In this document: positions 67 through 15,772 of the stretch, piece after piece | Position numbering within the stretch: the stretch's first letter is position 1 | Layout: each line of letters starts with the position of its first letter | Assembly: GCF_001570985.1 (NCBI RefSeq) | Contig: NZ_BCSS01000018.1 | Span: 1 to 62,206, forward strand | Length of the DNA: 62,206 nt | Direction of reading: 5' to 3' | From: Janibacter limosus NBRC 16128 | GTDB taxonomy: Bacteria > Actinomycetota > Actinomycetes > Actinomycetales > Dermatophilaceae | The notes under the pieces: model-generated | What the model was told of the DNA's origin: nothing | Database searches by the model: none | The model's input: the letters and a program-made list of their open reading frames with translations, nothing else | Position numbers and translations under genes: made by a program

Positions 67-954
67 TCAGCGCCGAGTCAGACGCCGGAGGTGGACACCG
101 ACGCGGAGGGCCCGTACGTAGCTGAAGGCGGCTGCGTAACGCACCTTGTTGAGGACGCCGGTGGGCGCAGGACGCGACCCTCCCCAGACGTGCACCCACA
201 CGGATAGCCCGCCCTTGGCTTCTCGGTAGGCGCGGTCGGCCAGAGCCCGACGACCGAGGTGCCCGGTGCGGTCGGCGATGCCATTGGCCACACGCACTGA
301 CTTGCGCCCGAGCTCGATCCAGCTGCTGCGGGCCGGGTGGCCGACCACGACCTGCGGTGCGTAGACCAACCGGCCACCACCGGCGACCAGCCGCGTACCC
401 CAGTCGGTGTCGCCCCCGGACTTCAGCTGCGGGTTGAACATTCCGACGCGGTCGAAGACCTTCCGCGTGACGAAGACATTGGCCGTCGCCGCGAAGGACC
501 ATTCCTCGATGTACTTGCGCTGCTGGAACTCGTGACGGATCTCGAAATGGTCCGGACCGGTTCGGGGGTTGGGCCCGTGGGGGAAGAACAGCTCGATGGC
601 CCCACCGATGGCATCGGGCGGAGGCTGCGAGCTCAGCGCCTCGACACCACGTCGCAGCCAGTCCGGCCGGGGAACGCAGTCGCTGTCGGTGAATGCGAGG
701 ACCTCGCCCGTCGCCGCCCGGACACCCGTGTTGCGGGCAGCGTACGAGCCTGGGCGACTTTCGTGGAGCAGGTGGAAGCGCAGATCCGAAGGCACTGCTG
801 GGGACACGTCATGGGTAGAGGCGTTGTCCACCACGAAGATCTGGACGAGCTCGGCCGGGTAGTCCTGCTGAGCCAGAGCTGACAAACACCGCTGAAGCGC
901 CGGCACGTCGTTGTAGACGGGAATGATCACACTCACGGTGGGTTTGGTGCTCAT
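67..954 (-). CDS. GT2 family glycosyltransferase
   Basis: A 295-aa family 2 glycosyltransferase, probably adding a sugar from a nucleotide-sugar donor to a lipid-linked surface glycan at the inner face of the membrane. It opens with the usual GT-A strand (VSVIIPVYND, residues 7-16), then VVDNAS (41-46), the metal-binding D90-S-D92 and a later GGDTDW acidic motif. No membrane segments are evident. The reading frame runs further upstream, but the ATG at 954 lies 2 bp after the stop of the preceding GT2 gene and starts directly with the conserved fold, so I use it. Last gene of a three-gene leftward operon. Donor and acceptor cannot be told. Confidence 0.85.
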   Translation of the reverse strand: MSTKPTVSVIIPVYNDVPALQRCLSALAQQDYPAELVQIFVVDNASTHDVSPAVPSDLRFHLLHESRPGSYAARNTGVRAATGEVLAFTDSDCVPRPDWLRRGVEALSSQPPPDAIGGAIELFFPHGPNPRTGPDHFEIRHEFQQRKYIEEWSFAATANVFVTRKVFDRVGMFNPQLKSGGDTDWGTRLVAGGGRLVYAPQVVVGHPARSSWIELGRKSVRVANGIADRTGHLGRRALADRAYREAKGGLSVWVHVWGGSRPAPTGVLNKVRYAAAFSYVRALRVGVHLRRLTRR

Positions 955-956
955 GC

Positions 957-1883
957 TCACCAGCCCTTCCGCCACTCGCGACGTCGGTGCCACGTGTCCT
1001 GCCAGTGTGCAGGTGCGTGCGCCCTTCGGCCGCCAAGAGGTCGGAAGCCGGCACCGACAGACCGCAGTCCCGTCCCCGCGACGAGCAGCCACCCAGCGAG
1101 GATGCCGACGGGACGAGGGTAGTTGCGCAGGTATGTGGTCGCCCGCCCGCGCATGACGAGGGTCAGGCGATTCGAGCCGGCGGAGGACGAACCCACGTCG
1201 TGGGTGTAGACCGCCTCCCGAGTGACCATAGGGGTCCACCCCGCTCGGCGCGCCCGCAGGCAGAAGTCCACGTCTTCGCCGTAGAGGAAGTACGTACGGT
1301 CGAAGCCATCGAGTTCGTCCCAGACCTCACGTCGCACGAGCATCATCCCGCCGCTGACGATGGGCACCACGAGCGCGACGCCATCCCAGTCATGGCCTGA
1401 CTCCGGGTCGAAGACGCGGGAACCGGGAAACACGCTGGAAGCGCAGGTCGCGAAGCACACGGCCGACCACAGCGTGGGTCGCCCCATCCAGGACTGGTGG
1501 TCGGAGTCGCCTGTCGGCGACAGCGCTCGGCCCCCGACGATCCCGGCCTCCGGATGGGTATCGGCGGTCCGCATCAGGGCTGCGATGGCGTCGGGTGCCA
1601 CCACGGCATCCGGATTGAGGAAGAGCAGTCTGTTGGCCGTAGAGGCTGAGGCACCCGCGTGGCACCCGGCAGCGAAGCCGTCATTGACGTCGCGCAGCAC
1701 GAGGGTCAGGCGGTCTGACAGTCCCGCCACCGCTTTTGTGATGTCGTCGTCCGAGTTGTTGTCCACGAGCAGGATGCGGGCGCCGGGGAACTGCTCGATC
1801 GCCTCAGCGACGGGTTCCAAACAGGCGCGGATGTAATCGGCACTGCGGTAGGCGACGATGACGACGTCGAGGGGCGCATTCAT
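957..1883 (-). CDS. GT2 glycosyltransferase, rhamnosyltransferase-like
   Basis: A 308-aa GT-A glycosyltransferase of the type often annotated as rhamnosyl- or galactofuranosyltransferase. The sequence shows VVIVAYRSA near the N-terminus, LLVDNNSDDD, FLNPDAVV in place of a classical DXD, and the GEDVDFCLRARRAGW motif usual for this subfamily. The ATG at 1883 overlaps the stop of the upstream 768-aa gene (ATGA), so the two are translationally coupled. Role: sugar transfer in cell-surface polysaccharide assembly; the sugar is inferred only from subfamily resemblance. Confidence 0.83.
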   Translation of the reverse strand: MNAPLDVVIVAYRSADYIRACLEPVAEAIEQFPGARILLVDNNSDDDITKAVAGLSDRLTLVLRDVNDGFAAGCHAGASASTANRLLFLNPDAVVAPDAIAALMRTADTHPEAGIVGGRALSPTGDSDHQSWMGRPTLWSAVCFATCASSVFPGSRVFDPESGHDWDGVALVVPIVSGGMMLVRREVWDELDGFDRTYFLYGEDVDFCLRARRAGWTPMVTREAVYTHDVGSSSAGSNRLTLVMRGRATTYLRNYPRPVGILAGWLLVAGTGLRSVGAGFRPLGGRRAHAPAHWQDTWHRRREWRKGW

Positions 1884-4186
1884 GGCGAGAACCTTGCCCG
1901 CTGACGCGCCCATTGCCGATAGGCGGCACCAGCGTGAGCTCGACCGGACGAGAACCTTCCGCGTCCCTGCCGCAGGCAGGAGCGAGCGAACGAGGCGAGC
2001 GCGCCGCTGAGGCGGACGGCGCGGAAGATGCTGCGGTGCAGGTGCTGGCGCCAGACCGGGTCGTACAGCAGGGACTGGCGGGACAGCCCGGTGAAAGGTT
2101 CCCAACGACTCTCGTAGGACAGCTCGCCGTAGGGCAGATCTCCGTCGAAGTCCTTGGGTGGGCCGGTGAAGCTGTAGATCTCGTCGAGGGGGGGCGCCTC
2201 GCCGGGGTAACGGTGGCTGAACTCGAAGTCGACGAGCCGGAGTTGGCCACCCGGGGCAAGAAGGAAGTTTTGTGGCTTGGCATCGATGAGGTCGAATCCC
2301 TGCGCGTGGACCTGACGAAGAACCTCCACCATCGACCGAGCCACTGAGAGGGGCACGAGTCGACCGCTCGGACGATCAGGCAGCCCAGCGAGGTCATTGG
2401 TGAAGAACTCGGTCTCGAACCAGTTGGGCCCCGTTCGCAGCAGCTCAGGGACAGCGCTGACTCGGGACGCGAGCGCGCGCATCGTCTCGACCTCGCGGGC
2501 CATGTGTCGTTGGCCGTGGGGCGCGAAGGTCTTGCGCACGACCGGATGACCGTCGCTGCCCTCGACCACCTCCACCTTGGCCCGGCGGCCGCGGCTGAGG
2601 ACCGCCAGCACAGGAACAGTCGTCCGGTAGTCGTCCCGCCGTGACCGGACCGCTCCGCGGATCGCTTCCACCTCGTCGGGCAGGCTGGTCTTGAGGTACT
2701 CCCAGGTCTCGAACTCGTCGTCGGAGGAGTGCACGGGATTGAACGCGTGCTCGGTCCCGAACCTGGACTCGACGAGCTCACGCATGAGGACCTTGGCGTG
2801 GAGGACGTCACCGTTGGTGAGGCGCGGGTAGCGAGCCAACAGCTCTCGGTTGGGTGGGCGGGGACCGTAGTGTGCGGCGACCACGACCATGACCGGGTCG
2901 CCACCGCTGACCGGGAAGGGGCCACGACCCCAGTTACCACCACGGACGAGTTCGGTCGTCCGACTACCCGCTTGTCCGGACAACTCGCGCACCAGAAGGA
3001 TCTCGAACTCGAGGGACTCGATAACTCTTACCGTCTCCTCACGGCCCAGAGCCGATAGGGCGCGTTCGCGGATGAAGAAGATGGTCGGCTCCGGCAGCTC
3101 GGGAGGTGCCTCGTCGTTCTGAGGAAAGAACCGGTGCTGTACCCACGCGTTGGCATCGGTGAGCCGGCGCAGTGTGTCCAGAGGCGGTCGCCACCCCTGT
3201 GCGGTCAACTCCTCGTCGACTCCCTCCAAGGACGTGGGCCACGAGCGGCCGAGTGAGTGAGCCACCCGTGTCAGGACCTGCGCGTAGTCGTGGTCTGGTC
3301 TCTTCTCGGGTTCCACGAGGTCCGATGCCAGACCTGACGCCGCCCCCTTGTGGTAGACCGCGTGGTAAGCCAACGAATGAAGGTGGTCTTCGGGGGAGGG
3401 GACGCGGGCGCCGCTGCGGTGCTCTTCCGCCCGGGCCAGCATCTGGGCCGCGAGGTGGGGTGGGTAGTAGGCCATCCCCAAGAAGTCGGCGCCCTCCAGC
3501 CCACTCTCGCTGTACACGTCGACCGGGATCGTGCCCGGCTCTTCGGCCAGGATCTCGTGCAGCCGCGTCAGGTCTCGATCGGCCACGAGAATGTCGAGGT
3601 CCTCGCCGGAATCGAGATGGGGGAGATCGTCGAACCACCGCAGGACGACGTAGTCGAGCCCGTCCTGCTCCAGGCGTCGGATCAGGCCTGAGACCCCGAC
3701 CGTCTCCGACAGGTAGTGCCGCGGTCGCGGTCGCGGTCGCTTCAGGCTGGACGTCTTGAAGACCTCGAACCGTTGTGGCCCGCAGGTGGTCGTACCCAGA
3801 TGGTCGATCCGGCCCGTCAGACGGGAGATGGCGAGCGCCCCATGGATCTGCAACCACGCTGTCGCAGAGGCCCTTTCGAGGACAATGTGGTGCGTATGGG
3901 TGAGGTCCCGGATGGCCCAGACAGCTCGGATGGCGGGCGCACGAAGCACCAGCAGATCTGTGTCATTGCGAAAGATCTGGTCGGGGCTGATCATCGGGTG
4001 GAAGCGACCTTGCAGGTGGTCGGGCACGCGGTCGAGCACGTCCTGATCGCTGGCGAGCACCAGGCCGAGGTAGTGATGGGCGCCCACCCGCGCGAAGGCG
4101 TCGGCAACCCCCGCATCACGAGCCCCCACGTCCAAGACCCGCGACGTCGGCTTTGCGAGCCCCTCCAGTGTCACGGGACCGACCAT
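1880..4186 (-). CDS. multidomain glycan-locus protein: methyltransferase-like, nucleotidyltransferase-like, NDK-like and kinase-like regions
   Basis: A 768-aa protein that heads the leftward glycan operon. Regions seen: residues 1-140, Rossmann-like with VLDVGARDAG (17-26) resembling SAM motif I; 160-300, nucleotidyltransferase-like with GEDLDILVADRD (194-205); 367-500, similar in order of elements to nucleoside diphosphate kinase, including NGDVLHAKVLMREL and NPVHSSD, whose His486 matches the phospho-His position; 540-690, a lipopolysaccharide-kinase/protein-kinase-like domain with K552, D635 in IDAKPQNFLL and DFE (653-655) in place of DFG. The C-terminus is basic (740-768). It lies among glycosyltransferases, so glycan phosphorylation or methylation is a sensible role, but that is inference. 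Domain assignments are by eye and the NDK-like one is the least certain. Confidence 0.7.
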   Translation of the reverse strand: MVGPVTLEGLAKPTSRVLDVGARDAGVADAFARVGAHHYLGLVLASDQDVLDRVPDHLQGRFHPMISPDQIFRNDTDLLVLRAPAIRAVWAIRDLTHTHHIVLERASATAWLQIHGALAISRLTGRIDHLGTTTCGPQRFEVFKTSSLKRPRPRPRHYLSETVGVSGLIRRLEQDGLDYVVLRWFDDLPHLDSGEDLDILVADRDLTRLHEILAEEPGTIPVDVYSESGLEGADFLGMAYYPPHLAAQMLARAEEHRSGARVPSPEDHLHSLAYHAVYHKGAASGLASDLVEPEKRPDHDYAQVLTRVAHSLGRSWPTSLEGVDEELTAQGWRPPLDTLRRLTDANAWVQHRFFPQNDEAPPELPEPTIFFIRERALSALGREETVRVIESLEFEILLVRELSGQAGSRTTELVRGGNWGRGPFPVSGGDPVMVVVAAHYGPRPPNRELLARYPRLTNGDVLHAKVLMRELVESRFGTEHAFNPVHSSDDEFETWEYLKTSLPDEVEAIRGAVRSRRDDYRTTVPVLAVLSRGRRAKVEVVEGSDGHPVVRKTFAPHGQRHMAREVETMRALASRVSAVPELLRTGPNWFETEFFTNDLAGLPDRPSGRLVPLSVARSMVEVLRQVHAQGFDLIDAKPQNFLLAPGGQLRLVDFEFSHRYPGEAPPLDEIYSFTGPPKDFDGDLPYGELSYESRWEPFTGLSRQSLLYDPVWRQHLHRSIFRAVRLSGALASFARSCLRQGRGRFSSGRAHAGAAYRQWARQRARFSP

Positions 4187-4329
4187 ACTGGGCAGAGGCT
4201 CCGGAGTGGGGCTACGGAGGTAGGCGCTCCCGTGGCGGGGCTTGTCAGCAGCCGGGTGAAGTAGCGGGGAGGGCTACGCTCGGCTCATCGGGGGTCTCAC
4301 TTCCGCATACCGGGTTAGAGGGGTTCACC
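4187..4329. promoter_or_regulatory. divergent intergenic region between the two glycan transcription units
   Basis: This 143-bp gap separates the leftward 768-aa gene from the rightward ABC exporter and must hold promoters for both. I see no clear sigma-70 hexamer pair and no convincing palindrome. An AGAGGGG stretch near 4316-4323 may be the ribosome binding site for the exporter's TTG start. Confidence 0.4.
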
Positions 4330-6180
4330 TTGAGGAGTACCGCGGCCGGCACGTCGGCGCCAGTCACAGGGAGCGTCGCGACTGAGCCAGCCCGTCGCGA
4401 GAACAACCCATTGGCCGCTGTGCGTGACGCCCGGCAGGCATGGGGCGAGCTGTCCCCCTTCCTGCGGGGTTCGCGGCTGTCGTTGGTCGCCTTGGTGGTG
4501 GTCGCTGTGCTGGCTGGTCTGGCAGAAGCCGGGTTGCTCGCACTGATCGCCACGGTCGCGGCAGCGTTGTCGACTGCCGAGACGGTTGTGACCACCGGCA
4601 TGGGACCGATCGGGATGACTGCGGGAGTGGCGACCACTTTGGCGGTGGGCGCGGCACTGGCTGTGGCGCGGGCGGGTCTCCAGCTGCTGCTCGCCTATGT
4701 CCCCGCGCGACTGGGCGCCTTTGCGACCGCGGACCTGCGGCGTTGGCTCTTCGATGCCTTCACCAAGGCCGCCTGGCCAGTGAAGGCATCCGAACGGGAT
4801 GGGCACTTCCAGTCATTGATGAACGCCCACATCACCTCCACGAGCCAAGCGATCGTCAACGTCGGTACCGGGCTGGCGGCCCTGGTCACCTTCTTCACCA
4901 TGCTGGTCTCCGCTTTCGTGCTCAACTTGCCCGCAGCGCTTGTGCTCAGCGCAAGCTCTGTCGTGCTCTTCGTGGTGTTGCGCCCGCTCGCGCGTCGGCT
5001 CCGGGGCGCCGCGAAGTCGCTGAGCACGGAGAACATCGAGTACTCAAAGAGGGTGCAAGAGGTCGTCCTCCTGGCCGAGGAGACCGAAGTCTTCGGAGCA
5101 TCTGACGCCTACCGCCGCGAGGTGTACTCGAAGATCGACAACGTGCGCCGGCCGTTGCTGCGGACTCGATTCCTGGCGGCTGCGGTGCCGGCGATCTTCC
5201 AGAGCATTGCCCTGCTGCTGCTGATCCTGGCGTTGTTCGCGGTGTCACTGACCGCTAGTGGCGAGATCGCGACCCTGGGCGCGGTCGTCCTGATCCTGTT
5301 CAGAACCCTCACCTACGCGCAGCAGGTCCAGGCGGCCGTGACGAGCCTGGACGAACGCATCCCCTTCATGCAACGTCTCGCTGAGGCGCTGCACCAGTAC
5401 GAGGACCATCCGCAGCAGGAGGGCGAGCACGACCTGCCGCCCTTGAAGACCATCGGATTTCGCGATGTGGGGTTCGCCTACCGTTCTGACCGACCGGCCC
5501 TGACCGACATGAGCTTCACGGTCGAGCGAGGCGAGGCCATCGGGGTCGCTGGCCCTTCCGGGGCGGGAAAGTCGACCGTCGTCCAGCTCTTGCTGCGTCT
5601 ACGTGAGCCAGACAGCGGCCGGGTGGAGGTGAACGGCATCGACGTTCGGGATTACCGGAGGCAGGAGTGGCGCGATCGCGTGGCCTATGTACCCCAGACC
5701 CCGCAGCTGGTGTGGGGCACGGTCGCGGACAACATCCGATTTTTTCGCCCAGACCTCACGGCCGAGGACATCGAGGGGGCGGCGCGTCGAGCCAACATCC
5801 ATGACGAGATCCTCTCGTGGCCACAGGGCTACGAGACGGTGGTCGGCCAGCGCGCCTCCGCCGTGTCAGGCGGGCAACGACAACGTCTGTGTCTGGCCCG
5901 GGCCCTCGCGGGACATCCAGAGGTACTCATCCTCGACGAGGCGACGAGTGCCTTGGACGTGAAGTCCGAGACCTTGGTCAACGACTCGCTCCAGCAGCTC
6001 AGGGGCCGGACGACACTCTTCCTCGTCAGCCACCGGCCCTCGGCATTGTCGATGTGTGACCGCGTCATGGTGATCGTTGACGGACAGGTGCAGCATCTCG
6101 CTGCCCCGGGCGTGCTCTCCTCCACCAGCGACTTCTATCAAGAGGCCACGCAGTTGGCTGGCGGCACGGGGCCGGACTGA
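4330..6180 (+). CDS. ABC exporter, fused permease and ATPase (lipid-linked glycan flippase type)
   Basis: A half-transporter of 616 aa with an N-terminal six-helix ABC exporter membrane domain and a C-terminal ATPase. ATPase motifs: Walker A GPSGAGKST (about 408-416), Q-loop in VPQTPQL, signature VSGGQRQRL (about 512), Walker B VLILDEATSALD (about 532) and H-loop SHR (about 567). The frame is open further upstream, but the TTG at 4330 is preceded by AGAGGGG and gives the usual length. Within this glycan locus, with Wzz-like and Wzy-like genes and no Wzx visible, a PglK/MsbA-like flippase for undecaprenyl-linked repeat units is likely. Export of another lipid cannot be excluded. Confidence 0.85.
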   Translation: MRSTAAGTSAPVTGSVATEPARRENNPLAAVRDARQAWGELSPFLRGSRLSLVALVVVAVLAGLAEAGLLALIATVAAALSTAETVVTTGMGPIGMTAGVATTLAVGAALAVARAGLQLLLAYVPARLGAFATADLRRWLFDAFTKAAWPVKASERDGHFQSLMNAHITSTSQAIVNVGTGLAALVTFFTMLVSAFVLNLPAALVLSASSVVLFVVLRPLARRLRGAAKSLSTENIEYSKRVQEVVLLAEETEVFGASDAYRREVYSKIDNVRRPLLRTRFLAAAVPAIFQSIALLLLILALFAVSLTASGEIATLGAVVLILFRTLTYAQQVQAAVTSLDERIPFMQRLAEALHQYEDHPQQEGEHDLPPLKTIGFRDVGFAYRSDRPALTDMSFTVERGEAIGVAGPSGAGKSTVVQLLLRLREPDSGRVEVNGIDVRDYRRQEWRDRVAYVPQTPQLVWGTVADNIRFFRPDLTAEDIEGAARRANIHDEILSWPQGYETVVGQRASAVSGGQRQRLCLARALAGHPEVLILDEATSALDVKSETLVNDSLQQLRGRTTLFLVSHRPSALSMCDRVMVIVDGQVQHLAAPGVLSSTSDFYQEATQLAGGTGPD

Positions 6181-6182
6181 TG

Positions 6183-7028
6183 TCACCACGACCCTCGACC
6201 GCGCAGCATTCGTTGGGCACGTTTGGTGAGATTGCGCTTCTTGAGACGCCATCCGGAGTATTCGCGAAGGTCCAGTGTGGCCGCCTGGACTGCCACGGCC
6301 GACTCGTGCTCTTGTGCGGCCCAGTCGGCGATCGTGGTGATCCCCAGCGCTTGAGCTGTCAGGGGCATCCTCCGCAGGAAGGCCTCATCGTCGGGAAAGA
6401 GCGTCTCCGGCGAGCGTGGGTCGTCCATGTTTTCTTCACGGAGGAAGGGGTAGACCCAGCCGTTGACCGCCCCGATGCGCGCCAGGTCGATGCAGTACTG
6501 GCTGAAGGACTGACCTTCTCGGATCCCGCCCTGCCGCTCGACGAGCGCCCGTGGCAGCAGATAGCTGCTGCCCTGCACCCAGTGGTTGCGCAGGAGGCTC
6601 ACACCTCCGGCGAACTGTTGGATCTTGCGCTCGGCCAGCTCGAGGACGAAGTCCTCGTCGCGGAATCGCCAGCAGCCGACTGCCCCGAAATCAGGGTTGT
6701 TCTCGTGCGCGACTCGCAGCTGTTGGATCCACCCGGATTGGGGCAGGCAGTCGTCGTCGACCTTGGAGACGAAGTCAGCGCTGCTCTCCTGCCACAACCA
6801 GTTGGTAGGGGGTCGCAGCCGGACGTTTTCACGACTATGGTGAAACTTGCTGACACGGGGGTCATTGGCATATGAGCGCACCACATCGAGGGTCTCTTCG
6901 TCATCACCGTTATGCCAGAGCCACACGCGAGTGGATTCGTCGCAGGTGGCGAGCAGGTGGGGGAGCGACCTTCTGACGTGATCCGGGCTGTTGTACGTAA
7001 TCATCAGGACATCGACGGTCGCCGGCAC
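6183..7028 (-). CDS. GT2 family glycosyltransferase
   Basis: A 281-aa glycosyltransferase of GT-A fold. Conserved pieces are VDVLMITYNS at residues 5-14 and the metal-binding triple Asp in VSKVDDDCLP. The middle holds two Trp-rich segments (NHWVQGSS and VNGWVYP) that may shape acceptor binding, and the C-terminus is strongly basic. Its stop lies 2 bp from the stop of the convergent ABC exporter, and its ATG faces the Wzz-like gene across 73 bp. Part of the surface-glycan locus; sugar specificity unknown. Confidence 0.82.
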   Translation of the reverse strand: MPATVDVLMITYNSPDHVRRSLPHLLATCDESTRVWLWHNGDDEETLDVVRSYANDPRVSKFHHSRENVRLRPPTNWLWQESSADFVSKVDDDCLPQSGWIQQLRVAHENNPDFGAVGCWRFRDEDFVLELAERKIQQFAGGVSLLRNHWVQGSSYLLPRALVERQGGIREGQSFSQYCIDLARIGAVNGWVYPFLREENMDDPRSPETLFPDDEAFLRRMPLTAQALGITTIADWAAQEHESAVAVQAATLDLREYSGWRLKKRNLTKRAQRMLRGRGSW

Positions 7029-7101
7029 TTCGCACCTAACCTTCCTCGAAAGGGACCGAGACCCTTCTGCGGTCCGTGGCTACAAGGAGCATCGCACCAA
7101 T

Positions 7102-7956
7102 ATGGACCTGTTCACGATCGCGGGAGCGTGCTTTCGCCGGTGGTACCTCACCCTGCCACTCCTGCTGCTGGTCGGTCTCTTCTCGTACCGCGCCTACGCC
7201 AACGTCGAACCGCTCTACACGTCATCCCGTTCGGTCGTGGTCCTGCCCAACCTCAAGCAGGGCGCCTCTCTGGACGGGGATGCAGGGAAGGGAGTCGATG
7301 ATGAGTCCAACCCCTACTCCGGGCAGGGTGGCTCGCGCTTCGCTGTTGCCGTGCTAACTCGCAACATCAACAGCACTGCCTTTGCTGAGCGGACCGGGCT
7401 CAAGGACCGTGTGGACAGCAGCTTCGTGGCCACTGCCTCCAAGGACCAGCCGATGATCAACATCGACGCGACGGCTCCCAGTGAGCAGGGTGTCCACGAC
7501 TTGCTGGACGTCGTGGCTGGAGAGGCGGCCGTCGTCCTCGACGAGTTCCAGGCTGATGCGGGCGCGCCCGCGGACACTCGTTACCGGATCACGCCTGCCG
7601 TTCCCGCCGGGCCGGTCGAGGATGCCACGCCCAGCCGTCTGAGGGCCGCTGGCGCCATCGGAGTCCTGGGGGGTGGTTTGGTTGCCGCGCTCGTCGTCGG
7701 TCTGGACGCAGTGCTGACTCGACGTCGTCGACGCCGGGATGGTCCGACCGTGGCGCCTGTTCGTGGTGAGCGAGAAGGCCGTGAGCAACGTCAGGGGCGT
7801 GAAGCCGACGTGGCCGGTGACCCCGGCGACCGGACGAGTGGTGATCCCACGAGTGACACCGCCAGCACGGATGCCGGGGTGGGCCCCTACGGCGAGGCAC
7901 CCGGGGCTGAGTCGCCGAGCGATCTGCACCCAGCGTCGGCCTCTGCCCACGACTGA
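7102..7956 (+). CDS. Wzz-like chain-length / capsule co-polymerase protein
   Basis: A 284-aa protein with the layout of polysaccharide co-polymerases: a cytoplasmic N-terminus, TM1 at about 16-35, an extracytoplasmic region (36-180) and TM2 at about 183-205, then a poly-Arg stop-transfer and a charged, probably disordered tail of about 75 residues. The tail has no Walker or Tyr-cluster motifs, so this is not a fused BY-kinase. The ATG at 7102 is preceded by AAGGAG at 7084-7089; upstream in-frame codons lack a site. Eight bases separate it from the Wzy-like gene, implying co-transcription. Likely sets polymer length with Wzy. Confidence 0.72.
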   Translation: MDLFTIAGACFRRWYLTLPLLLLVGLFSYRAYANVEPLYTSSRSVVVLPNLKQGASLDGDAGKGVDDESNPYSGQGGSRFAVAVLTRNINSTAFAERTGLKDRVDSSFVATASKDQPMINIDATAPSEQGVHDLLDVVAGEAAVVLDEFQADAGAPADTRYRITPAVPAGPVEDATPSRLRAAGAIGVLGGGLVAALVVGLDAVLTRRRRRRDGPTVAPVRGEREGREQRQGREADVAGDPGDRTSGDPTSDTASTDAGVGPYGEAPGAESPSDLHPASASAHD

Positions 7957-7964
7957 GGAAGCCG

Positions 7965-9524
7965 GTGTACACCGATTCGATGGCGGCGCGCCATGGACGC
8001 AGTACCGGAGGTCGGGCGCCCGGCCCTTGGTCGGCACTTCTCGCGCTTCCCGTCGTCGCACTGGTCGTCCCGGCGTCACTGGTCATCAGCGGACCGTTGC
8101 GGTCCAACGGGTGGCCGGCTCGTCTTCTGATCTTCTGGATCGCGGCGATGATCGTGCTGGGCTGGATCGCTCGGTGGGCCGGGAGGAGGGAGGCGCCCGG
8201 GGGGAGAGCCGGAACGCCTCCCGTCGAAGTCGGAGCCTGGTTGTTGATCTTCGGTCTGTGCACCTCGCTGGCGGCTGCGACGATGCGGAATCTCGCTGAG
8301 GTAGAAGCCGCGGGGATGCTGCGCTTCGCGCTCACCTTGATCCCGTTGGTCATCCTGACCATCGGCGTGTCCACGTTGGCGGACAGTCGCCACTGTGACC
8401 TGTTGCTAGCGGGCATCCTGCTGGGCGCGGGTATCGGTGCAGCCATCGCCATCGTCCAGTTCGTTGTCCCCTTCGACTGGGGCCAGGTGCTCCAGATCCC
8501 CCCGTTGCACACAGATGACACATCCGGCACGGGCTCGAGGGGCGGATTTGCCCGGATCCGGGGCGCGACCGACCACCCGATCGAGCTCGGCGTGATCTGT
8601 GGCGCCGCTGTCCCCCTGGGCCTGCACTTCGTGCGGTTCGCGCCGACGCAGCGGCTGCGAGCCGTGGCGGCGGTCTTGATGACCCTGCTCGTCCTGAGCA
8701 TCCCGATGGCTGTGTCGAGATCCGGGATCCTCGTCGTGATGCTCGCTCTCGCCGTCTATGCCGCGGTGCTCGACGGCCGCCAGCGCCTCACCGCACTCGT
8801 GCTGGCGATCGCTGGGATGGCCATCTTCAGAGCGGCCGTGCCGGGACTGTTGGGGACGGTGGTGTCAACTTTCACGGGAGCTTCCACCGACGACAGCATC
8901 ACCGGACGCACCGAGGACTACGCGGTGATCAACGAGCTGTGGACCCAGCAACCGTTGCTGGGGTATGGGCTGGGCACTTTCCGGCCGGAGACGTACTTCT
9001 TCTTGGACAACCAGTACCTGATGTCCTTGGTCGAAGGGGGGCTGACGCTGCTGGCGACCACCATCGTGTTCTTCGTGCTGGGGGTGGCGAGTGCTCGGGG
9101 GGCAGCGCGCCGTGCCGCGAGCCCGGCGGAGGCGTCGCGGGGCCAGGCGGTCGCGGCTTCGTTGGTGGCGATCGCTGCCTCGGGTCTCTTCTTCGACCTC
9201 TTCAGCTTCGCCCAGGTCACCGTCGTGACTTTTGTGCTGGCCGGTGTCGCGGGCGGCGTGTGGCGGCACGGAGTGCGCCACGGGATGCCCTTGCCCAGCC
9301 CGGCGCAGCGGTTCGCCGCCGCGCGCTCGGGCGAGCGCCCTGCTCCGGGTTCAGGTACGGCTGCTCTCGTCCCGCAACCAGCTGGTGAAGTCACCATGGC
9401 GCACAGCTCGCCGCGCACGATAGGAGGACAGCACGGCCACCCCCACGAAGACCGGCATCTTCAGCGCCAGGGAAGGACGCCTGCGCACGACGCCGATCAA
9501 CGTGGCCGGACGCGTCCGGGCTGA
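7965..9524 (+). CDS. Wzy-like O-antigen polymerase/ligase membrane protein
   Basis: A 519-aa polytopic protein with about ten to twelve hydrophobic helices and one long extracytoplasmic loop, the pattern of the Wzy/WaaL (O-antigen ligase) family. Conserved-looking features are the GGFARIRGATDHPIELG segment and YGLGTFRPETYFFLDNQYL near the end of the last large loop. GAGGAA before the GTG at 7965 supports that start; an ATG at 7980 is a possible alternative. The last 60-70 residues are hydrophilic, low-complexity and overlap the convergent glycosyltransferase by 174 bp, so they may be dispensable. Role: polymerising lipid-linked repeats outside the membrane, with the Wzz-like neighbour. Confidence 0.78.
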   Translation: MYTDSMAARHGRSTGGRAPGPWSALLALPVVALVVPASLVISGPLRSNGWPARLLIFWIAAMIVLGWIARWAGRREAPGGRAGTPPVEVGAWLLIFGLCTSLAAATMRNLAEVEAAGMLRFALTLIPLVILTIGVSTLADSRHCDLLLAGILLGAGIGAAIAIVQFVVPFDWGQVLQIPPLHTDDTSGTGSRGGFARIRGATDHPIELGVICGAAVPLGLHFVRFAPTQRLRAVAAVLMTLLVLSIPMAVSRSGILVVMLALAVYAAVLDGRQRLTALVLAIAGMAIFRAAVPGLLGTVVSTFTGASTDDSITGRTEDYAVINELWTQQPLLGYGLGTFRPETYFFLDNQYLMSLVEGGLTLLATTIVFFVLGVASARGAARRAASPAEASRGQAVAASLVAIAASGLFFDLFSFAQVTVVTFVLAGVAGGVWRHGVRHGMPLPSPAQRFAAARSGERPAPGSGTAALVPQPAGEVTMAHSSPRTIGGQHGHPHEDRHLQRQGRTPAHDADQRGRTRPG

Positions 9525-10205
9525 GGCTGAGCGCCACCGACCGGCGTCCGCCTGAGCGTTGCCGGTTCTGACTCTGACCCGACGGCGGAGGAGTGCTGGG
9601 AGGGTACGTGCGGGGTAGACGACGACGCTCGCGGTCTCGACCACTCTGCGCTCCTCGGGGGAGAAGAGCTCAGAGAGCAGGAGGTCGTCAGCCATGGCCT
9701 CGGCGGCCCCCTCGAACCGCCGGTGCCCTTCCTCTGACAACGCGATGACGCCGCGGCCGAACAGGCCCTCGCGTGCCTGCGGCAGCTCTTGCCAGACGTC
9801 GTAGTACCACCGAGCCAGTCGAGACACGCCGTCGAGCGCGTAGTGCCGGGACGGGCCGCAAGCGTGCACGGTCCCACTGCGCAGCGCGTCGACGAGTCCC
9901 AGCACGGACTCTGCATCGATCTCGACGTCTGCGTCCACATACACGCGCGGAAACACGGTGGCCACGGCGCTGCCGCCGCGCATGGCGAGGAGCTTCGAGG
10001 ACTCTGGGATCTCGATCACCTGCACGTGCGGGAAGGCTGCGGCTCGTGCCGCCGTGGCGTCTGTGCAGCCATTGGGGACGACGATCACCTCGAGACCTTG
10101 CTCGCCTGCCGCCGTGGTCAGGCCCTGCAGGAGCCGACCGATCGAACGTTCCTCGTCGTGGGCCGGCACGATGACGGAGGCGATGGGTCTGGCAGTGTCC
10201 GACAT
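9351..10205 (-). CDS. GT2 family glycosyltransferase
   Basis: A 284-aa GT-A glycosyltransferase: ASVIVPAHDEE (residues 9-19), IVVPNGCTDAT and the metal-binding VDADVEID. The C-terminal third is rich in Arg and may contact the membrane. It is the fourth GT2 of the glycan locus and is transcribed towards the Wzy-like gene, overlapping its 3' end by 174 bp. A single ATG at 10205 starts the conserved fold. Substrate unknown. Confidence 0.82.
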   Translation of the reverse strand: MSDTARPIASVIVPAHDEERSIGRLLQGLTTAAGEQGLEVIVVPNGCTDATAARAAAFPHVQVIEIPESSKLLAMRGGSAVATVFPRVYVDADVEIDAESVLGLVDALRSGTVHACGPSRHYALDGVSRLARWYYDVWQELPQAREGLFGRGVIALSEEGHRRFEGAAEAMADDLLLSELFSPEERRVVETASVVVYPARTLPALLRRRVRVRTGNAQADAGRWRSASARTRPATLIGVVRRRPSLALKMPVFVGVAVLSSYRARRAVRHGDFTSWLRDESSRT

Positions 10206-10267
10206 AGGGCCATCCTCTCAATGTTCGCCGGCGGGAAGTGGCCAATGGCTCACGTTCGTGCGCGGCC

Positions 10268-10273
10268 TAGACT
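10268..10273 (+). promoter_or_regulatory. -10 box of purN (TAGACT), leaderless type
   Basis: TAGACT ends six bases before the GTG of purN at 10280, so transcription would start at or beside the start codon and give a leaderless mRNA, common in actinobacteria. The same hexamer precedes the purH riboswitch. No good -35 box is visible. Confidence 0.5.
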
Positions 10274-10279
10274 CCCTTC

Positions 10280-10882
10280 GTGCTCCCCCTCCGTATCGTT
10301 GTCCTCGTCTCCGGCTCGGGGACCCTCCTGCAGTCACTGCTCGATGCAGCAGCCGCCGGGACGCTGCCCGTGCAGATCGTCGCCGTCGGCACCGACCGTG
10401 CCGACTGCACAGGTCTCGCCCGGGCGCTGGCGGCCGGCGTGCCGACCTTCGTCGAGCCGGTGGCCGATCACCCCGATCGGGATGCGTGGGACGCGGCCCT
10501 GGCCGCGACGATCAGCGAGCACACCCCAGACCTCGTCGTCACGGCCGGCTTCATGCGGATCCTCGGCCCGCAGGCTCTGGCCGCGGGCACCTTCCTCAAC
10601 ACCCACCCTGCTCTGCTCCCGGCTTTCCCCGGCGCGCACGGCGTGCGTGATGCCCTCGCGTACGGGGTGCGCGTCACCGGATCGACCGCCCACCTCGTCG
10701 ACGCCGGCGTCGACACCGGCCCGATCATCGAGCAGCGGACCGTCACGATCACCGACGACGACACCGAGGAGACGCTCCACGAGCGGATCAAGGCCGTCGA
10801 GCGGGAGATGCTGGTCGACGTCGTCACGGCCATGGCCACCGGTGGCTGGCGCGTCGAGGGACGCCGGGTCATCGTGGGCTGA
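10280..10882 (+). CDS. purN: phosphoribosylglycinamide formyltransferase
   Basis: GART enzyme of 200 aa that transfers formyl from 10-formyl-THF to GAR in de novo purine synthesis. Visible motifs are the N-terminal VSGSGT phosphate-binding loop, the catalytic [15 protein letters not shown] segment (Asn and His of the N-H-D triad) and the later DTGPIIEQ with the Asp. The usual SGxGTNLQ reads SGSGTLLQ here. The GTG at 10280 is favoured because a TAGACT -10 box lies six bases upstream and no SD is present. It is followed by purH after a 146-bp riboswitch leader. Confidence 0.96.
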
Positions 10883-10910
10883 CCGGTTCGCCGCTCGTCC
10901 CGTCCGGCCG

Positions 10911-10916
10911 TAGACT
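10911..10916 (+). promoter_or_regulatory. -10 box of the purH riboswitch transcript (TAGACT)
   Basis: TAGACT lies about seven bases before the first conserved bases of the ZTP aptamer, so the predicted transcript would begin at about 10922-10924, just at the riboswitch. It shows that purH can be transcribed independently of purN. The -35 region is weak. Confidence 0.5.
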
Positions 10917-10921
10917 CGAGA

Positions 10922-11000
10922 CCACACGACTGGCGAAGGTGGATCACCACCGGGGAGTGACGACGTCGAGGTGCATCGCCCGCCTGGGTGCACCCATCCC
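10922..11000 (+). ncRNA. ZTP riboswitch (pfl motif) upstream of purH
   Basis: The segment carries the hallmarks of the pfl/ZTP aptamer in order: ACGACTGGCG, then a short helix AAGGTGGATCACCACC, then CGGGGAG, a variable linker, and the 3' subdomain CCGCCTGGGT at 10979-10988. ZTP riboswitches sense ZMP/ZTP, the AICAR intermediates that build up when 10-formyl-THF is short, and commonly precede purH and folate genes. Here it precedes purH directly, with folD next. There is no clear terminator between aptamer and start, and the aptamer ends about 17 bases before the CCAGGAG ribosome site, so control of translation is the simpler reading. Confidence 0.9.
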
Positions 11001-11028
11001 GCACCGCAGCGACCCTCCAGGAGTACTC

Positions 11029-12630
11029 GTGTCAGATCGCCGTCCCGTCCGCCGTGCCCTCGTCTCCGTCTACGACAAGACCGGGCTCGAGGACCTCGTC
11101 CGCGGTCTGGCCGAGGCGGGCGTCGAGCTCGTGTCCACCGGTGGCTCCGCCGCCACGATCGCCGGTCTGGGCCTGCCGGTGACCAAGGTCGAGGACCTGA
11201 CCGGGTTCCCCGAGTGCCTCGACGGACGGGTCAAGACCCTGCACCCGCGCGTCCACGCGGGCATCCTCGCCGACACCCGCCTGCCCGACCACGTGCGCCA
11301 GCTCGAGGAGCTGGAGGTCGCCCCCTTCGACCTCGTCCTGGTCAACCTCTACCCCTTCGCCGACACGGTCGCTTCCGGGGCCGGGGTGCAGGACTGCATC
11401 GAAAAGATCGACATCGGCGGTCCGACCATGGTCCGCGCTGCGGCCAAGAACCACGCGTCGGTCGCGATCGTCACGGACCCGACGAGCTACGGCGAGGTCC
11501 TCGAGGCCGTGCGCGGCGGCGGCTTCTCGCTCGAGCAGCGCCAGCGCCTCGCGGCCGAGGCCTTCGCCCACACCGCTCGTTATGACGTCGCGGTCGCGGA
11601 CTGGATGGCCGGGACGGTCGCCGACACGGGTGACGGCACCGGCTTCGACGCGCAGATCGGCGGCACCTGGACGCGTCAGCAGACCTTGCGCTACGGCGAG
11701 AACCCCCACCAGCGCGCCGCCCTGTACGTCTCCGACACGCAGTCGGGCCTCGCCCAGGCCGAGCAGCTGCACGGCAAGGAGATGTCGTACAACAACTACG
11801 TCGACGCCGACGCTGCCCTGCGTGCCGCCCACGACCACGGCGACCAGCCGACCGTCGCGATCATCAAGCACGCCAACCCGTGCGGCATCGCGGTGGGGGA
11901 GAGCATCGAGGTCGCCTACGAGCGCGCCCACGCCTGTGACCCCGTCTCCGCCTACGGCGGCATCGTCGCGACCAACCGCCCCGTGACCGCGGCCATGGCG
12001 ACTGCCCTCAACGACACCTTCTCCGAGGTGATCGTCGCCCCGGACTTCGACGCCGATGCGTTGGAGATCCTCAAGGAGAAGAAGAACCGCCGCCTGCTCA
12101 AGGTGGCGACCCCGACCCCCGGTGGTGTCGAGGTGCGACCGATCTCCGGTGGTGTCCTCGTCCAGGAGCGCGACGCGATCGACGGCGTCGTCGAGGCCAA
12201 GGGGGACGACAAGCCGACGCAGGGTCATGGCGACGACCCGAGCGCTTGGGTGCTCGTCACGGGTGAGGGCGCCGACGAGGCGACCCTCGCGGACCTCGCC
12301 TTCGCCTGGCGCGCGGTGCGCGCCACCAAGTCCAACGCGATCCTCCTGGCCAAGGGCCAAGGCTCCGTCGGTATCGGCATGGGCCAGGTCAACCGCGTCG
12401 ACTCCTGCCACCTGGCCGTGAGCCGCGCCGGCGAGGAGCGGGCGAAGGGGGCCGCCGCTGCATCCGACGCCTTCTTCCCCTTCGCCGATGGCCTGCAGGT
12501 GCTGCTCGACGCCGGGGTCACGGCCGTGGTCGCCCCGGGCGGCTCCGTCCGCGACGACGAGGTCGTCGCAGCCGCGCAGGCGGCAGGCATCACCATGTAC
12601 TTCACCGGCACCCGCCACTTCGCCCACTGA
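11029..12630 (+). CDS. purH: bifunctional AICAR formyltransferase / IMP cyclohydrolase
   Basis: A 533-aa enzyme for the last two steps of IMP synthesis. The N-terminal MGS-like cyclohydrolase domain shows [25 protein letters not shown] and [15 protein letters not shown]; the C-terminal AICAR transformylase part shows [24 protein letters not shown] (catalytic Lys-His pair) and [11 protein letters not shown]. The GTG at 11029 has AGGAG five bases upstream and follows the riboswitch; longer in-frame starts would lie inside the aptamer and are rejected. folD follows after 27 bp. Confidence 0.97.
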
Positions 12631-12657
12631 CGAGCCACCCAGACCGGAAGGACACAC

Positions 12658-13518
12658 GTGACTGCACAGATCCTCGATGGCAAGGCCGCGCTGGCCTCGA
12701 TCAAGGCCGAGCTGACGGTGCGGGTTGCCGCGCTCAAGGAGCGGGGGGTCACCCCTGGCCTCGGCACGGTGCTGGTGGGTGACGACCCCGGGAGCCGGTG
12801 GTACGTCGGTGCCAAGCACAAGGACTGCGCCGAGATCGGCATCACGAGCATCCGTCGTGACCTGCCGGCCAGTTCCAGCCTCGACGAGGTGCTCGAGGTC
12901 GTGCGCGAGCTCAACGAGGACCCGGCGTGCACGGGGTTCCTCGTCCAGCAGCCGACCGGGTTGGACGAAAACAGGGTCCTCTCTGCGGTGGACCCGCTCA
13001 AGGACGTCGACGGGCTGCACCCGACCAACCTCGGGTGGCTCGTCCTCGGTGAGCCGGCCCCCCTGCCGTGCACCCCGATGGGGTGCATCGAGCTGCTGCG
13101 GCGCCACGATGTGCCGATCGCGGGTGCGCACGTGGTGATCGTCGGCCGCGGGATCACCGTGGGTCGGCCACTCAGCCTGATCCTCACCCGGCGCAGCGAA
13201 AACGCCACGACGGTCTCGTGCCACACAGGCACTCGTGACCTGGCGGCGGAGGTCCGACAGGCTGACATCGTCGTCGCCGCAGCCGGCGTGCCGGGGATCA
13301 TCACCAAGGACATGGTCAAGCCCGGCGCTGCCGTGCTCGACGTGGGCGTGAGTCGGATCGTGGCCGAGGACGGGAAGTCCAAGGTTGCAGGTGATGTCGC
13401 CGCGGACGTGGCAGACGTCGCGGGCTGGGTCAGCCCCAACCCCGGTGGTGTCGGTCCGATGACGCGGGCGATGCTGCTGAGCAATGTCGTCGAGGCGGCG
13501 GAGCGCAGCCTGGCATGA
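12658..13518 (+). CDS. folD: methylene-THF dehydrogenase / methenyl-THF cyclohydrolase
   Basis: A 286-aa bifunctional folate enzyme that supplies 10-formyl-THF to purN and purH. Motifs: [37 protein letters not shown] and [12 protein letters not shown] (the common form is GRSxxVGxP), then the C-terminal [13 protein letters not shown]. One departure is Tyr-Val-Gly-Ala-Lys (residues 50-54) where most family members have Y-xxxK, so the catalytic Lys is kept. GTG start with GGAAGG upstream. It overlaps the DUF3017 gene by ATGA. Confidence 0.96.
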
Positions 13519-13850
13519 GCGAGCCGGGAGCCGGAGATGAGGGTGCAGGGGATGAGGGCGCCCCTGTGCAGGTACGCCCTGCCCTCGACTCCCGGCCACT
13601 GGCTGCGTGGTGGGTCATCTTTGCCGGGCTCGTCGTCGGACTGCTTTTCGTCCTGACCGACCACATGCTGCGTGCGACCGTCAGCGTGGGTGCTGCACTG
13701 CTGCTCGCGTCCGTGCTGAGGGTGGCCCTGCCCGGGTCCACGGCCGGGGGGATCGCCGTGCGTGGCCCGCTCGTGGATGTCGTGATGCTCGGCGTCCTGG
13801 GCGTGGCGGTTCTGGTCTCGGGATTCACCTTGGACCTCGCTGCCCGCTGA
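13515..13850 (+). CDS. DUF3017 small membrane protein
   Basis: A 111-aa protein with an acidic Gly-rich N-terminus (about 25 residues) and three hydrophobic helices at about 30-50, 54-72 and 83-105. Its position directly after folD, overlapping by four bases, is the conserved actinobacterial setting of the DUF3017 family. No catalytic motif is present and its function is unknown. Confidence 0.8.
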
Positions 13851-13879
13851 GCTCCTAGCGAGGGATCACGACAGCACGC

Positions 13880-13916
13880 AGGAGGGGCCCCGCACCACTG
13901 GTGCGGGGCCCCTCCT
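13880..13916. terminator. bidirectional hairpin terminator
   Basis: A 17-bp perfect stem (13880-13896 with 13900-13916) with a three-base ACT loop sits between the rightward folD/DUF3017 operon and the leftward mdh. There is no T-run on either side, as is usual in high-GC actinobacteria. Confidence 0.85.
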
Positions 13917-13934
13917 CGTCGAGCTCTAGAGGGG

Positions 13935-14930
13935 TCAGCCCTTGATGAGGCCGAGCTTGGTCACGGCCTCACGCTCCTCGGTGAGCTCGGCGACGGACGC
14001 GTCGATCTTTGCACGCGAGAAATCGTCGATCTCGAGGCCCTGGACGATCTCCCAGGCCCCGTCCTTGACGGTGACGGGGAACGAGGAGATGAGTCCCTCG
14101 GGGACACCGTAGGAGCCGTCGGAGCAGACCGACATCGACACCCAGTCACCCTCGGGGGTGCCCAGGGCCCAGTCGCGAGCGTGGTCGACGGTCGCTGACG
14201 CCGCGGAGGCGGCCGAAGAGGCGCCTCGCGCCTCGATGATCGCTGCGCCACGCTTGGCGACGGTCGGGATGAAGGTGCTCTCCAGCCAGTCCTGGTCGCC
14301 CACGGTCTCGGCGGCGTTCTTGCCGGAGACCTCTGCGTGGAAGAGGTCCGGGTACTGGGTGGCCGAGTGGTTGCCCCAGATCGTCATCTTCTTGATCTCG
14401 GTCACCGGCACGCCCAGCTTGGCGGACAGCTGGCTGATCGCCCGGTTGTGGTCCAGACGGGTCAGGGCGCTGAAACGCTCGTTGGGGATGTCGGGCGCAT
14501 TGTTCATCGCGATGAGTGCGTTGGTGTTGGCCGGGTTGCCGGTGATCGTGATGTGCACGTCGTCGGCCGCGACCTTGTTGAGCGCAGCGCCCTGCGGGGC
14601 GAAGATGCCGCCGTTGGCCTCCAGGAGGTCACCGCGCTCCATGCCCGGGCCGCGCGGGCGGGCGCCCACGAGAAGGGCGTGGTTGACGCCGTCGAAGACC
14701 TTTTCGGCGTCATCGCCGATCTCGACACCGGCGAGCGTCGGGAAGGCGCAGTCGTCGAGCTCCATGACGACGCCCTCGAGGGCCTTCAGGGCCGGGGTGA
14801 TCTCCAGCAGGCGCAGCTCGACGGGGGTGTCGGGACCGAAGAGGGACCCACTGGCGATGCGGAAGAGAAGGCTGTAGCCGATCTGGCCGGCGGCGCCGGT
14901 GACGGCGACCTTGACGGGAGTGGTGCTCAC
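13935..14930 (-). CDS. mdh: malate dehydrogenase
   Basis: A 331-aa NAD-dependent malate dehydrogenase of the TCA cycle. It shows the nucleotide loop [14 protein letters not shown] (residues 8-21), the substrate-loop arginines in [36 protein letters not shown] with the catalytic Asp, and the active-site His in [12 protein letters not shown]. Length is usual for the family. ATG at 14930. It stands alone, ending at a shared terminator and preceded by an 89-bp gap after rskA. Confidence 0.97.
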
Positions 14931-15019
14931 GAGAAGTCGTACCCCTTAGTGCGGTGATTGGGCAGCAGATACGGGGACGACCTTACTCCGCGGCCGGGAC
15001 CCGATGTCATCGACGTCCG

Positions 15020-15772
15020 TCACCCGAGCTCGATGAGAGCGACCGGCGTGGTGGTCGGCTGCGGTGAGCCGGCTGCAGGCTCCTTGGTCAGGCCGACGCC
15101 CGCTGCGTCGTCGACGTCGCCCTCGAGGAGCATCTCGCCGTCAGTGGTGGTCATCATCCCAGCCGGGACCATGGAGCCTGAGGGGTCCTGGAGCCAGGCC
15201 TGGTACGCGTTGCCGCTCCCGGGGTCGGCCAGACCCTCGACACGCAGCACCGCCTTGCCCAGCTGGTCGGACCGCACGACGCTGACCGTGCCGCCACCGG
15301 GCGTGGTGGTCTGCCAGCTCTGGGCATCGGAGGCAGCCAGGACCTCGTCCGTGGCGCTCGTGGTGACCTGCTCCACGACCTGCCAGGTGACGCCACCTCC
15401 GACGACGAGTGCGGCTGCCGCGGCCAGTGCGGCCCACTGCCGACTCACCCGGCGACGCAGGGGGACGACAGTGGTCTCAGAGGGAGCCTCGGTGCCGGTC
15501 TCGGCGAGGACAGGCTCCGAGGAGACGGGCTCCTCGACGACCGGGGGGTCCTGGCGGGTGGTGCGGATCGCAGCCATGATGTCGGCGCGCAGTGCTGGGG
15601 GAGGGGCGAAGGCGACCGTCTCGGCAAGCAGCGGAGGGACCGCGCGGAGCGAGTCGACCTCGTCGCGGCAGGTCTCGCATCGGCCAAGGTGCACCTCGAA
15701 GTCGGCACGTTCCTGATCGCTCAGGGCGTCGAGGGCGTAGGCCCCGGAGAGGCTGTGCAGGTCCTCGCTCAT
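15020..15772 (-). CDS. rskA: anti-sigma-K factor
   Basis: A 250-aa membrane anti-sigma factor that holds SigK inactive. The N-terminal cytoplasmic domain has a zinc-binding anti-sigma motif, HLGRCETC (HxxxCxxC, about residues 28-35); a single TM follows at about 112-130; the rest is an extracytoplasmic RskA domain (AYQAWLQDPSGSMVPAGMM is typical). Its start overlaps the stop of sigK by four bases, so the two are made together. Release by regulated proteolysis is known for RskA relatives and is inferred here. Confidence 0.93.
   Translation of the reverse strand: MSEDLHSLSGAYALDALSDQERADFEVHLGRCETCRDEVDSLRAVPPLLAETVAFAPPPALRADIMAAIRTTRQDPPVVEEPVSSEPVLAETGTEAPSETTVVPLRRRVSRQWAALAAAAALVVGGGVTWQVVEQVTTSATDEVLAASDAQSWQTTTPGGGTVSVVRSDQLGKAVLRVEGLADPGSGNAYQAWLQDPSGSMVPAGMMTTTDGEMLLEGDVDDAAGVGLTKEPAAGSPQPTTTPVALIELG

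Follow-up and report, generated by a model that had tools for sequence, protein, structure and literature searches.

Several described systems invite comparison with the protein considered here. In WbdD of Escherichia coli O9a, methyl-phosphate on the non-reducing end stops elongation, and a long C-terminal coiled-coil region recruits the polymerase; in the LicA/LicD phosphocholine pathway a kinase and a transferase of the pol-beta fold work in Wzy-type loci; and nucleoside diphosphate kinase (NDK) is normally a stand-alone housekeeping enzyme. The gene that we analysed lies in a stretch of 62,206 nucleotides from Janibacter limosus NBRC 16128 (contig NZ_BCSS01000018.1, positions 1 to 62,206; hereafter the window) and encodes one protein in which three domains – a nucleotidyltransferase (NTase) of pol-beta type, an NDK-like domain and a protein-kinase-like domain – follow a methyltransferase-like N-terminal part. 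Comparison with its relatives indicates that this fusion protein represents a real, conserved and rare multidomain family with an unusual NTase-NDK core. As far as our searches go the family is undescribed: among the matches listed from the open-licence literature of PubMed Central, no title or abstract start describes an NTase-NDK-kinase fusion in polysaccharide loci. The family stands out for coupling a divergent NDK-like domain to a nucleotidyltransferase in six phyla, in many cases at surface-polysaccharide loci; the active-site histidine of the domain is kept in 27 of 27 aligned members. If that domain works, it would point to a hitherto unrecognised kind of phosphate chemistry on the surface glycans of bacteria.

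That a single gene is involved, as the initial annotation had it without naming a strand, is borne out by the open reading frame, which runs unbroken over exactly 1880-4186 of the minus strand and encodes 768 residues; it is also the sole copy that a search of the genome found. A frameshift artefact or chimera – the error that the initial annotation had flagged – is ruled out by relatives on the scale of the full length at 11 loci (L039-L049), which are 43-54% identical to it across almost the entire length and of which each is one uninterrupted reading frame. Pfam reports only Pkinase (E 2.5e-4) and NTP_transf_5 (E 0.066) in the window protein, both under the cut-offs; because it sees almost nothing in the single sequence, the case for the domain identities rests on the relatives.

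These relatives are few. A scan of the genome_contigs collection with the single protein gave none, whereas a scan of the same collection (84,980 species) with the family alignment gave 31 loci in six phyla: Actinomycetota, Gemmatimonadota, Alphaproteobacteria, Verrucomicrobiota, Bacillota (Planococcus and kin) and Planctomycetota. The survey once proposed for actinobacteria is thereby carried beyond them; its patterns sit in the NTase, and NDK-like domains without an NTase would escape it. Closer to home, long matches occur in three of 246 genomes sampled from the class (the window's own, G000, with G043 and G084), the matches in the other 31 tallied genomes being short, weak and nearly all to the kinase part; in two of 58 close relatives (G000 and G289); and in none of 15 other species of the genus. 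When 396 genomes of the phylum were searched with the NDK profile, at most nine candidates being scored per listed genome, the only gene recovered was the window's own. Viral contigs held no relatives of the fusion protein, and neither did plasmids searched by tblastn with the window core and the protein of L057, an alphaproteobacterial member. Domain searches and the family alignment give 12 of the 31 loci the four-part architecture (L039-L050), 11 NTase-NDK-kinase (L051-L059, L063, L067), four NTase-NDK only (L060, L061, L062, L066) and two methyltransferase-like-NTase-NDK (L064, L065); of the remaining two, L068 is truncated by a contig end and L069 is split into two genes. In the tree the window protein falls in the four-part group beside that of Georgenia thermotolerans (58% identity over 370 columns; support 97/94), while a cross-phylum branch joins the verrucomicrobial Roseibacillus with Phyllobacteriaceae (support 100/99). 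Since some branches cross phyla and the gene is rare, horizontal spread seems likely.

Residue conservation was counted over 27 aligned members, of which 23 rows bear the kinase, and 14 members were checked for the methyltransferase-like part. The initial annotation had proposed four domains, to be checked by fold and profile searches; the kinase, NTase and NDK-like parts held up, with decreasing strength, and the methyltransferase-like part looks weak and relic-like. Evidence is strongest for the kinase. Its 23-row profile matched 744 distinct sequences of the Protein Data Bank (PDB) at E ≤0.01 (best E 2.2e-9), the 60 matches listed being named protein kinases. Matches to LanL and LanKC of NCBIfam occur in 21 of 27 members (best E 1.2e-11); those in the window protein are confined to the kinase part. 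The window protein has the full set of Lys, Glu, catalytic-loop Asp/Asn and metal Asp, and in the kinase-bearing rows E565 and D635 are found in 23/23 and K552, N640 and D653 in 22/23 each. A DFE in place of DFG, singled out earlier as a peculiarity, is indeed present, yet it is no oddity of this protein: the Glu is kept in all 23 kinase-bearing rows, and the Kdo/WaaP-type kinases at the loci of two planctomycete relatives read DLE. Kdo/WaaP-type and other protein-kinase-like glycan kinases, as well as the kinase part of class III/IV lanthionine synthetases, have the same K, E, D, N, D set and D-x-E; the domain here differs from them in its fusion to an NTase-NDK core and in its weak sequence similarity.

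A good case can be made from profiles for the NTase. Compared with 11 sequences of NTP_transf_5 (PF14907), it scored 43.3 over 154 columns (P 1e-5; 0/150 column shuffles as high), against 11.7-20.1 in five cross-family controls. The window protein alone stays below the PF14907 gathering score (13.2 versus 31.2 bits), and the NTase-domain profile, run against the PDB, returned two chance-looking matches and no NTase. The DxD and third carboxylate (D196, D198, D223) are nonetheless kept in 26 of the 27 members; the sole row without the triad, from Microvirga (L067), has Q, V and A. Invariant positions number seven of 210 over 27 rows and 22 once Microvirga is set aside, D196, D198 and D223 among them. 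The domain thus resembles the PF14907/MNT-like NTases of pol-beta type in its DxD, third Asp, downstream His-rich stretch and profile-level match, and departs from them in having LRWF for the KG/GG motif, in its sub-cut-off Pfam score and in its fusion to an NDK-like domain.

For the NDK-like domain the likeness is moderate. Eighteen of 28 PDB profile matches are named NDK, with a best E of only 0.026; the others include six hexokinases, two PdaC, YiiL and thioredoxin domain-containing protein 6. The three alignments printed each have the start (the strand with KPD) and the histidine motif both in register, at a low score. Profile-profile comparison with 28 NDKs gave a score of 31.4 (P 1.5e-4; 0/150 shuffles as high) over 34 columns round the histidine only, and PF00334 and the NCBIfam NDK model each match four of 27 members (best E 7.5e-4 and 0.012, respectively); on the window protein PF00334 gives no match at E up to 1. 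Joint alignment places R373 on the lysine of KPD, R469 on the Arg of GTIRGD, and N483 and H486 on N-x-x-H, in NDKs presumably K12, R105, N115 and H118. R373, R415, W419, K465, R469, N483 and H486 are invariant in 27/27 rows, as is D489, which follows the N-x-x-H; in all, 16 of 161 positions never vary. The four residues named in the initial annotation (His486, Lys552, Asp635, Asp653) are where it put them, and the LIKPDG motif that it described as lost is missing; simple loss is the wrong description, as an Arg stands at the lysine column in every row and the site is altered. With NDK (PF00334) the domain shares a similar first strand-helix-strand stretch, then an Arg and the N-x-x-H motif with its following Asp; in place of KPDG it has an invariant Arg followed by a variable residue, and it adds an RGGNW stretch, an altered middle and a longer stretch ahead of the histidine. 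It is not the housekeeping NDK, an identity excluded by an ordinary NDK encoded as a separate gene of the same genome.

A further observation concerns members in which a domain has decayed or is missing. The Microvirga fusion that lacks the NTase triad has a separate NTase domain with DxD within 3 kb (7094-7675), and in Pelagibacterium (L069) an NTase with DxD (9920-10648) is followed by a gene for a degenerate NTase and NDK (10641-11828; degeneracy judged by eye). NTase loss is thus matched nearby in both cases, which hints at a two-chain enzyme at these two loci. Kinase loss or absence is matched nearby in seven of eight cases (L050, L060, L061, L062, L064, L065 and L066, with L069 the exception), a count made without a control for the frequency of kinases near other polysaccharide genes and in which the close kinship of the four Planococcus-group loci leaves fewer than seven independent events. 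In the Gemmatimonadetes member (L050, 9797-12256) the kinase is broken (N640D, D653R), and a second kinase-domain copy on the same contig (2-784), truncated where the L050 sequence begins and perhaps the tail of another family member, has N640 and D653 in place by eye. The Planococcus fusion (L060) has no kinase, and the fourth gene downstream is APH/choline-kinase-like; at L061, L062 and L066 genes of the same cluster occupy the same place. The planctomycete loci carry Kdo/WaaP kinase-GT2 fusions (L064, 6877-8415, minus strand; L065, 12981-14693, plus strand). A degenerate or missing NTase or kinase is usually offset in the vicinity by an intact copy or a different kinase, and this pattern suggests that the NTase, NDK-like and kinase activities work together. 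These coupled losses and restorations also offer a direct route to testing which steps share one pathway.

Our favoured reading – tentative, and to which we would not quite give an even chance – is that the fusion protein is an enzyme acting in the cytosol, during polysaccharide assembly of the Wzx/Wzy type, to add a phosphate-based substituent to the repeat unit. The kinase would phosphorylate a hydroxyl, either on the lipid-linked oligosaccharide or on the incoming sugar; the NTase would then carry out nucleotidyl or phosphoryl transfer on the same substrate; and the NDK-like domain would relay phosphate via His486, supplying or processing nucleotide. All three would act on one substrate, most likely the lipid-linked repeat unit. 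The ABC (ATP-binding cassette) half-transporter encoded next to the fusion would flip the modified unit, in the place that Wzx takes at other loci, and Wzy would polymerise it. Consistent with such an enzyme are the catalytic sets of NTase and kinase, intact in sequence, the invariant histidine site, the complementation of NTase and kinase, the occurrence of Wzy, Wzx or Wzz genes at several related loci as well as in the window, the adjoining gene for a GT2 glycosyltransferase, and the want of any strongly hydrophobic stretch (top 19-residue mean 1.03). The suggestion in the initial annotation that a glycan is phosphorylated was, in this respect, a sensible guess. A bolder proposal, and an unlikely one, is that the NTase and an NDK-derived phospho-histidine relay act on a glycan, or on phosphate linked to one, instead of free nucleotides, and that in at least six phyla they work with the kinase to equip lipid-linked polysaccharide units with a substituent of pyrophosphate or nucleotidyl type that is so far undescribed.

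Several findings weigh against the assembly-enzyme reading. The KPDG motif is gone from the NDK-like domain, and in the joint alignment the place of what we take to be the active-site Glu of NDK (E129) is not conserved as Glu. No Wzx/Wzy-type gene is among the scanned neighbours at L051 (one) and L059 (two). The family kinase profile finds no convincing kinase near the Pelagibacterium pair, where only a few neighbours were scanned with Pfam, and it also misses the APH-like gene of Planococcus, whose product is only distantly like the family kinase (hhalign P 0.0034, 21 columns).

The main rival, somewhat doubtful in our view, is synthesis of a donor in the style of LicA/LicC: the kinase would phosphorylate a small alcohol or sugar, the NTase would make a nucleotide-activated or phosphodiester donor (LicA/LicC/LicD-like), the NDK-like domain would recharge nucleoside diphosphate to triphosphate on the spot, and a neighbouring transferase would move the group to the glycan. 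Kinase and NTase do pair here, as kinase and pol-beta-fold transferase do in the Wzy-type loci of the Lic pathway, and NDK similarity would suit the recharging step. The best support comes from the Planococcus locus L060, where the APH/choline-kinase-like gene is followed two genes later by an NTP_transferase (PF00483) gene. However, the 27 members between them match 22 families at E up to 1, and LicD (PF04991) is absent from these; nor does LicD match any of 40 scanned proteins of related loci at the E limits used. The NDK-like domain has no counterpart in the Lic pathway, and the genome already encodes an ordinary NDK. The separate kinases of L064 and L065, being fused to GT2, point moreover to a sugar or glycan substrate.

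Quite improbable is a regulator or scaffold, in which the NDK-like and methyltransferase-like domains would do no more than bind nucleotides or sugars, while phosphorylation of proteins of the assembly machine would fall to the kinase. The lost KPDG, the eroded methyltransferase-like site and the protein-kinase names of the 60 listed PDB matches would all fit, but His486, R373, R415, K465, R469 and N483 never vary in 27 rows, and an intact NTase is encoded nearby where the triad is lost, which a scaffold would not need.

The methyltransferase-like part bears on a further model. Its likeness is weak: Methyltransf_23 matches two of 27 members (best E 0.0078), and profile-profile comparison gave a score of 29.8 (P 5.5e-4, 28 columns) that one of 60 shuffles exceeded, at 131 – a value that is perhaps an artefact, yet which we counted against the likeness. 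At the aligned columns of the S-adenosylmethionine (SAM) site, which we take to follow class I (motif I GxGxG, an acid after strand 2, whose end we placed at position 43), Gly occurs at 21 in 12 of 14 members, at 23 in none and at 25 in two, and an acidic residue at 43 in none. With the usual SAM-site residues missing, a working methyltransferase was set aside as improbable. The part is also missing from 15 of the 31 loci, all of them with an uncut core (11 three-part, four two-part), and it is an optional appendage that probably does not methylate.

Least likely of the enzyme models, and very improbable, is the WbdD-like chain terminator of the initial annotation – kinase and methyltransferase capping the polymer end to set chain length before ABC export – since the exporter type mismatches and the methyltransferase site is eroded. 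The fusion does share with WbdD a glycan locus with an ABC gene and the relative order of parts, methyltransferase-like at the N terminus and kinase towards the C terminus (layout as in PMC3482155). WbdD systems have a Wzm/Wzt pair in which Wzt bears a carbohydrate-binding module (PMC3482155), whereas the ABC gene that adjoins the fusion, likened earlier to such exporters, encodes a fused half-transporter on one chain, and the presence of Wzy_C and Wzz-like genes suggests that polymerisation and control of length proceed by a different route. Export of the WbdD type was rejected on the fused ABC type and the Wzy_C context. The 11 three-part relatives, moreover, keep the kinase without the methyltransferase-like part, and capping leaves the extra NTase and NDK-like core unexplained.

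Features of the window discussed in the text (positions in the window, residues in the fusion protein)
Feature	Residues	Position	Strand	Remarks
Second GT2 glycosyltransferase		67..975	-	
GT2 glycosyltransferase		957..1883	-	its ATG overlaps the TGA of the fusion gene (ATGA)
NTase/NDK-like/kinase fusion gene with N-terminal methyltransferase-like part, 768 residues		1880..4186	-	stop codon 1880-1882
Basic C-terminal tail	701-768	1883..2086	-	14 K/R, 1 D/E
Protein-kinase-like domain	521-700	2087..2626	-	K552, E565, D635, N640, D653; DFE
NDK-like domain	360-520	2627..3109	-	R373, RGGNW 415-419, K465, R469, N483, H486
His486 codon, aligned with the NDK phospho-histidine		2729..2731	-	
NTase domain, pol-beta type	150-359	3110..3739	-	D196, D198, D223; HxxxHK = H275, H279, K280
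Methyltransferase-like part, eroded SAM motifs	1-149	3740..4186	-	
Divergent ABC half-transporter		4411..6180	+	ABC_membrane (PF00664) and ABC_tran (PF00005) on one chain
GT2 glycosyltransferase		6183..7028	-	
Weakly Wzz-like protein		7102..7956	+	Pfam E 0.26; cluster recurs in three Georgenia loci
Wzy_C/O-antigen-ligase-like polymerase		8244..9524	+	cluster recurs in three Georgenia loci
GT2 glycosyltransferase		9351..10205	-	overlaps the end of the Wzy-like reading frame

The surroundings of the gene bear out the glycan-locus setting first proposed for it: the order is GT2, GT2, fusion, divergent ABC half-transporter, GT2, weakly Wzz-like, Wzy_C and GT2. The half-transporter is a candidate flippase. 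Because the ATG of the GT2 gene and the TGA of the fusion gene overlap, the two are probably translationally coupled. Of the 31 rows with a next gene, 16 have a GT2 there (on the opposite strand in L044), and in 10 the two genes overlap by 4 bases, irrespective of what the next gene encodes. The basic tail, 68 residues that come after the kinase part, would possibly contact the membrane surface.

Parts of this arrangement recur. Three Georgenia loci share the window's Wzy- and Wzz-like clusters and two of them the next cluster as well; L043 shares the adjacent ABC gene cluster, and by eye G084 has an ABC-transporter-like reading frame in the same place, adjacent and divergent. Elsewhere there are matches to Wzy_C (L044, L056), EpsG and MurJ (L060), Wzz (L056) and Polysacc_synt_3 (L053, L067, L069). 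None of eight window proteins scanned gave a Wzt- or Wzm-type Pfam match, in a locus that the contig start may cut: the window begins at base 1 of contig 18, and the rest of the glycan locus may lie on a different contig. One of the two overlapping ends, that of the Wzy-like reading frame or that of the last GT2 gene, may be misplaced. Relatives of the Wzy-like gene (7965-9521) are only 30% identical and occur in three of 15 other species of the genus; from these sparse matches the locus looks variable within the genus.

Two observations at related loci are of separate note. Near the fusion at L045, a gene (4245-5933) combines a methyltransferase match (PF08241, E 5e-4) with a TCAD9 stretch (E 1.4e-6) that is perhaps kinase-like, and may possibly encode another methyltransferase-plus-kinase protein; its BLAST cluster also occurs in L043, L046, L047, L048 and L049, the L045 copy being the one scanned for domains. 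Beside the member at L057 stand genes for an HpcH/HpaI aldolase (12602-13372), a sulfotransferase (13388-14182) and a protein of the inositol-monophosphatase family (14343-15107), neighbours that may hint at the chemistry of the glycan.

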